Shown here: positions 45,334-46,317 of the stretch, in pieces
How the letters are laid out: every line of letters starts with the position of its first letter
How positions within the stretch are numbered: the stretch's first letter is position 1
Assembly (NCBI RefSeq): GCF_013343005.1
Contig: NZ_CP054491.1
Span: 3,082,501-3,146,500 of the forward strand
Origin: Candidatus Reidiella endopervernicosa
Lineage (GTDB): Bacteria; Pseudomonadota; Gammaproteobacteria; GCF-013343005
Direction: 5' to 3'
DNA: 64,000 nt
Program-made: the position numbers and the translations under genes
The notes under the pieces: generated by a model
What the model saw: the letters and a program-made list of their open reading frames with translations, nothing else
What the model was told of the DNA's origin: nothing
Database searches by the model: none

Positions 45334-46317
45334 GCCCGGCTGCTATTCTGCTGGTCCGATTCGATCTGGCCGTCGCGGAGTGCGATAAGACGTTTCGAGT
45401 AGTTCATCACCAGTTTGTCGTGGGTAGAGAAGAGAAAGGTTATACCGTGCTCCTCATTCATATGGCGCAGCAGCTGCATCAGATTCTCTGCCGTATGTGA
45501 ATCGAGGTTGGCGGTCGGCTCATCGGCCAGCACCAGGGTCGGTTCGGAGACGATGGCACGCGCCACTGCTACCCGCTGCTGCTGTCCACCGGAGAGCTCC
45601 GCCGGTAGGCGCTTCTCCATTCCGGAGAGCCCCACCTCATCGAGCATGGCACGGGCGCGTTCACCCCGCTCCGCCGCCTCCACGCCCTGCAGTTGCATGA
45701 CAAACTCGACGTTCTCCTGCGCATTGAGTACGGGGATCAGATTGTAGGCCTGGAATACAAAACCGAGTCGGGGAGTCGCTATTTTTGCGAAAGTTTGTTT
45801 TGGGCATCCAAGCCCAAGCAAACAGCAAAACTTAACGCGACCATTTATGCCTACGGCGCCCCGACGTCCTGCGTTCGTTGCGTAATCACCTATTCGCGGC
45901 TCTACACAACTCCCTCAGTGACTCTACGCCGACATAAAGCCGCTGCTGCATCTTCTTCGTCGTCCGCTCGCGCTCTCAACTACGAATAGGCAGACGGCGT
46001 CGACTATCGCGGACTAACCGCCTTCGCTTCGCTATCCATGGCGGTCAGCGATGGTTGAGGCGCAGATCGGCCAGCTCACCCTTGCTCATGGTATCGAGCC
46101 GCTGACCGCTGAGGTAGACCTCCCCACTGCTCGGCGTATCGAGTCCACCGATAACATTAAGCAGCGTACTCTTGCCAGAACCAGAGGGCCCTGAGAGACA
46201 GGCGAAATCGTGTTGCGGTATCTCCAACGAGAGATCGTCGAGGGCATGCACCTCGACATCACCCTGCCGATATCGTTTGGTCAGACTCCGACAACTAACC
46301 GTTACATCATTCACCAT
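45330..46317 (-). pseudogene. ABC transporter ATPase (LolD/MacB-like), split by element copy 5
   Basis: The first part, 46317-46051, has Walker A (LSGPSGSGKSTLLN) and ends LRLNH. The second resumes with RLGFVFQAYNLIPVL (Q-loop), then LSGGQQQRVAVARAI, Walker B LVLADEPTANLD and the H-loop FSTHD. Removing exactly 45771-46050 rejoins CAT and CGA in frame with no base lost, giving a complete ATPase. No other damage is present. The five other genes of the operon are intact and need this ATPase, so either the insertion is very recent or the element can leave the message or the DNA. Confidence 0.9.
45771..46050 (+). mobile_element. 280-bp dispersed element, copy 5 (B-left, b-right)
   Basis: 280 bp, antisense to the ATPase gene, left flank GTC(G), right flank ATGGTT. 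GTTTG (45793-45797) pairs with CAAAC (45819-45823). The exact join of the flanks in frame fixes the element length at this site, apart from a 1-bp G ambiguity. Confidence 0.93.

Follow-up and report, generated by a model that had tools for sequence, protein, structure and literature searches.

A widespread family of gene-less DNA elements that may multiply as folded single strands through type IA topoisomerase

REPINs are thought to be mobilised by RAYTs, and PATEs by the TnpA transposase of IS200/IS605 elements. The element described here, from the genome of Candidatus Reidiella endopervernicosa, resembles both in being gene-less, in its hairpin ends, in the absence of target duplication and in a bias towards single-stranded or lagging-strand DNA. 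It differs from them in having no consistent Y1 partner, in a target defined only by a C at position -4 in all lineages, and in a length of ~290 nt within which family-wide internal sequence is shared. Bacterial MITEs are likewise short, present in many copies and devoid of a gene; in contrast to MITEs, the element has neither terminal inverted repeats nor target duplication, and its end hairpins are not inverted repeats of each other. A MITE of a DDE transposon was rejected on the first two of these grounds. IMEX, which use the host recombinases XerC and XerD, also lack a transposase, and the element would in the same manner employ a housekeeping enzyme of the host that cuts DNA strands. However, IMEX insert at dif, whereas the element is found at hundreds of CNNN sites and the enzyme proposed for it is a type IA topoisomerase. 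An IMEX exploiting XerCD was itself discarded as a candidate, since the ~340 dispersed sites have flanks that share only the C at -4 and not dif. The last point of comparison is topoisomerase I (TopA): a break made by TopA is normally resealed with nothing inserted, whereas the element stands inserted at sites that resemble those of TopA, and to our knowledge no strand-transfer role of such a kind is known for this enzyme. Judging from the sequences, we give about an even chance to the proposal that the ~340 copies belong to a widespread, transposase-free DNA family that multiplies as folded single strands by means of type IA TopA.

Within the window, by which we mean the whole 64-kb stretch of DNA that was analysed, one copy of the element splits the ATPase gene of a minus-strand ABC exporter operon into two ABC_tran halves, interrupting the Q-loop region. 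The features at this site are as follows.

45768..46050, + strand: mobile element copy, 283 bp (HCGGGGAGTCGC...GGCGGTCAGCG), delimited by aligned copies, reading frames, a nested copy and ABC homologues
45330..45767, - strand: interrupted ABC ATPase gene, 3' part (PF00005)
46051..46317, - strand: interrupted ABC ATPase gene, 5' part (PF00005)
46051..46055, + strand: target (NNNGH, here ATGGT) on the 3' side of the element, reading 5'-ACCAT^ with C at -4 on the bottom strand

The insertion is precise, has an ABC_tran half on either side and involves no target duplication, so the original prediction of an exact, scarless insertion in the Q-loop region holds. The five other operon genes (44098-45333, 46317-47531, 47528-47842, 47832-49052 and 49052-49798) are, as had also been claimed, open and overlapping. 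The borders first proposed, 45771-46050, need correction. Joining the gene at these positions leaves one surplus residue at LRLNHRLGF compared with all five of the five aligned ABC structures, whereas removal of 283 bp restores the canonical R-LNHL-GF spacing (join DLRLNH^LGFVFQ; joined sequence DLRLNHLGFVFQ). Most other copies with long flanking open frames give an in-frame join only if the leading HC(G) is assigned to the insert; otherwise an extra codon results, as for the copies in GGDEF, IS3 transposase and MCP genes. In addition, a copy nested inside another copy (L020) shows the empty site TATTTT^TGCGAAAG, for which no protein argument is needed. The ATPase copy thus extends over 283 bp from 45768 to 46050 and reads TCGGGGAG...CAGCG.

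An exact join that gives a canonical ATPase, in an operon whose remaining genes are intact, would also suit an insert that is excised or spliced out to restore the protein, and removal or bypass by the cell had indeed been one of the options put forward. We consider this the least probable of the explanations weighed here. The element and the ATPase gene run antisense to each other, the ~340 copies of the element lie in all contexts without an intron signature, both orientations occur among the copies in broken genes, and an Rfam search of the element gave no intron or ribozyme match. Removal or bypass therefore finds no support in these data, and splicing or another RNA bypass of the ATPase insertion is unlikely because the element is antisense to the gene and is one of hundreds. 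A group I or group II intron was rejected as well, given the lack of an intron RNA match in Rfam and the presence of copies in both orientations in genes.

The insertion is not unique but belongs to a large population. A genome-wide pattern search with the 37-nt right (3') end of the element retrieved 341 sites at ≤3 mismatches, compared with 0 in the control; this corresponds to ~340 copies in the 3.45-Mb genome, or ~2.8% of its length. Copy counts are taken from these pattern matches because the whole-genome DNA search scored only 40 of 367 candidates. Six copies lie within the window, the one at 45768-46050 and the following five.

2044..2325, + strand: further element copy
13303..13586, + strand: further element copy
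19753..20035, + strand: further element copy
20564..20846, - strand: further element copy
50977..51261, + strand: copy breaking a methyl-accepting chemotaxis gene (50318-52215)

We analysed 82 full copies, drawn from the matched places and from evenly sampled stretches of the genome. Nearly all sampled copies are full length. The median difference between copies is 14 positions, and the most similar pairs differ at only 1-2, which leaves the earlier idea that the ATPase insertion is very recent plausible.

Of 369 gammaproteobacterial genomes sampled, at least 41 contain divergent relatives, as found by a sequence-only profile built on the right part of the element. Carriers include Candidatus Sedimenticola endophacoides, tubeworm endosymbionts, Thiocapsa and Thiorhodococcus, as well as plasmids of Methylobacter and Methylomonas, and a carrier genome often holds several near-identical copies at contig ends. 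The length is ~290 bp in most lineages and ~110 bp in one of them (G314). Searches of phages and E. coli genomes yielded no match to the element; apparent matches on E. coli plasmids proved to be the flanking IS3 gene. In the open-access literature we found no prior description of the family, and the words of its sequence are likewise absent there. One copy in an Escarpia tubeworm endosymbiont has its left-end hairpin interrupted by an IS110-like transposon (L215 2677-4364).

The element carries no gene and has hairpins near both ends.

45775..45841, + strand: left end, outer stem GTCGC (45775-45779)/GCGAC (45837-45841) around a hairpin at 45793-45823, from folds and relatives
46014..46048, + strand: right-end hairpin CTAACCGCC...GGCGGTCAG, 2 nt from the border, from covariation

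The architecture of the left end recurs in other genera with different stem sequences. For the right hairpin, 96.9% of the cells are paired across 20 lineages, with 24 both-sided changes (0 of 500 shuffles), and the loop on the bottom strand contains the mini-hairpin sequence GCGAAGC. The right end is precise, whereas the far (left) end varies in its first base and in a run of 3-4 Gs, which suggests that the far-end cut is less precise. The first base of the left end is linked to the subtype of the right end (p=8e-8). Part of the length variation among copies may be assembly error, because the topA gene of this genome reads as two frames.

The covarying helix at the right end, together with one precise end and another that is variable in its first base and G run, could also point to an RNA-based element, either a ribozyme or a retro-element, that is reverse-transcribed and inserted by target priming beside NNNG. 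We regard such an origin as improbable: there is no Rfam match, copies are found in both orientations in genes and are nearly all full length where sampled, and the target preference matches that of an enzyme that cuts DNA.

Insertion occurs without target duplication, and the sequence to the left of the element is uninformative. On the other side, target position +4 is a G in 77 of 82 copies in this genome, three of the five exceptions being resolved by a one-base ambiguity of the terminal G, and +5 is almost never a G in the same 82 copies. In other genomes +4 is a G in 145 of 147 copies, and the rule also holds in divergent lineages that end in GTCG instead of CAGCG. In every lineage, then, the element lies directly 5' of NNNG, which is equivalent to insertion after 5'-CNNN^ on the other strand, and this CNNN stays directly 5' of the folded end in every integrated copy. 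Exact empty sites come from the nested copy, the ABC ATPase and FlhA (SARFT^LDAMPGKQMAIDADLN; ARFT^LDAMPGKQ). The FlhA site belongs to the lineages starting with CAAG, where five of the six informative genes yield an exact empty site.

The orientation of the copies follows replication. Copies on the + strand number 21 per 1.55 Mb at positive GC skew versus 78 per 1.41 Mb at negative skew (p=2.5e-10), and an evenly spaced sample agrees on this bias (19:11 versus 4:15, p=0.007). With strands assigned by GC skew, the CNNN strand falls on the template for lagging-strand synthesis, DNA that is frequently single-stranded.

Bacterial TopA requires a C at -4 and cleaves at CXXX^ (PMC7587558, PMC9352719, PMC2702276). 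The cytosine is selected by Arg169, and an Arg169Ala enzyme is reported to favour A at -4 instead (PMC7587558); a C at -5 occurs in none of 26 mapped cleavage sites (PMC2702276). We scored the element targets with position weights derived from these 26 published sites, leaving out -4, and used as controls all other CNNN sites within ~260 bases of the insertion places. The targets reached a mean of 0.49 compared with -1.59 for controls in this genome (n=77, p=1.4e-12), and 0.25 compared with -1.75 in other genomes (n=137, p=2.8e-20). A C at -5 was found in 0% (this genome) and 5% (other genomes) of targets versus 22-27% of controls. Apart from the C at -4 and the lack of C at -5, targets and TopA sites share C or A (with little T) at -3, A or T at -2 and a pyrimidine at -1. 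Considered as a possible TopA site, the far end of the element, its 3' end on the CNNN strand, is not well suited in every lineage: it has the C at -4 in the case of ...CTTG and ...CCGR ends, but not of ...GATCT (G127).

TopA was found in all 17 element genomes tested, including the nine without a Y1 hit. In this genome, the only one in which the residues were read, Arg169 and the aromatic residue at 177 are kept, while Arg173 is replaced by Tyr. Its topA consists of two frames of 402 and 331 aa (L306 1105-3396; G000:C1 ~428800-431100); the splits in topA and in two RAYT genes are likely residual assembly indels, or else real frameshifts.

From this footprint we infer TopA as the enzyme, a strand-exchange route and cutting at the second end. 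That the element is a short non-coding mobile DNA, moving as a single strand and inserted by host TopA without a dedicated transposase, is the reading we favour, with a little better than even confidence. In such a scheme the element's bottom strand (5'-CGCTG-[hairpin]...-3') would fold while the lagging-strand template is single-stranded, and TopA would cut at the CNNN directly 5' of the hairpin, its tyrosine holding the 5' phosphate. TopA would make a second cut in a single-stranded target, again at a CNNN. An exchange between the two covalent intermediates would then join the 3'OH of the target CNNN to the 5' end of the element, the 3' end of which would be joined to the other side of the target, and replication would convert the product into a double-stranded insertion without loss or duplication of target DNA. 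Since a CNNN is kept beside the folded end, TopA could act at this site once more and begin a new round.

A dedicated enzyme obeying the same rule of a C at -4 would leave the same marks and is the main rival. Here a non-autonomous element would be moved in trans by an HUH-type transposase that reads the end hairpins, which we consider possible but rather unlikely. Such an enzyme fits the subterminal hairpins, the absence of duplication, the lagging-strand bias and the lack of genes; this genome has three Y1 genes, and a Y1 hit was obtained in 32 of the 41 element genomes. On the other hand, nine of the 41, among them two with near-identical copies (G023 and G309), have no Y1 (PF01797) hit, a count that includes several incomplete assemblies and in which divergent Y1 proteins could be missed. 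The three Y1 genes of this genome are of the RAYT type and two are frameshifted; one of the three (L042 1495-2245) is flanked by short repeats of its own, GGATGGGCAAAGC...GTGCCCATC. Several of 12 RAYT loci inspected likewise have their own, different flanking repeats, and ends of the family lie near only two (L031 and L132), L031 being an insertion at the 3' end of the gene. Moreover, IS200/IS605 elements each have a short target sequence of their own, whereas the target described here has its C at -4 whatever the lineage and agrees with TopA preferences at other positions.

Other transposase systems were also considered. An IS110 or bridge-RNA element was rejected as this genome has no PF02371 DEDD transposase, and a TnpB (OMEGA) element as PF07282 is absent from it. 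On a Methylobacter plasmid one copy is placed 84 bp upstream of a TnpB gene and has an IS605-like end hairpin on its other side, possibly by chance (L166 2959-4455). Among the families searched (Y1, IS110 and TnpB), no transposase accounts for the element; incomplete genomes could hide one. The fetched loci, with ~190 end pairs that are nearly all 180-340 bp apart, contain no autonomous copy with a gene between its ends. Two end pairs are long, one because of an IS110-like transposon in the left hairpin and the other as a truncated tandem.

If the TopA footprint means what it appears to, an essential and universal enzyme doubles as a transposase, and shape alone, with no need for a gene, is enough for DNA to spread. 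It would also explain a class of repeats without partners and provide a natural record of TopA cutting inside cells. If a dedicated enzyme is responsible instead, there is still a large family of mobile elements in gammaproteobacteria that seems to have gone unrecognised.

Some observations concern the placement of individual copies. In a complete 5-Mb genome (G248; L092, L094-L099) eight of eight scored copies are on the + strand, which may be a listing effect. In the genome studied here, three copies lie within 3 kb, apparently in large haemagglutinin/adhesin-type genes (L047 3662-6517). Finally, tandem or nested copies are found ≤16 nt from the left end of another copy (L049 3177-3740 and L020 1237-1780), and the left ends of existing copies seem to be favoured targets.
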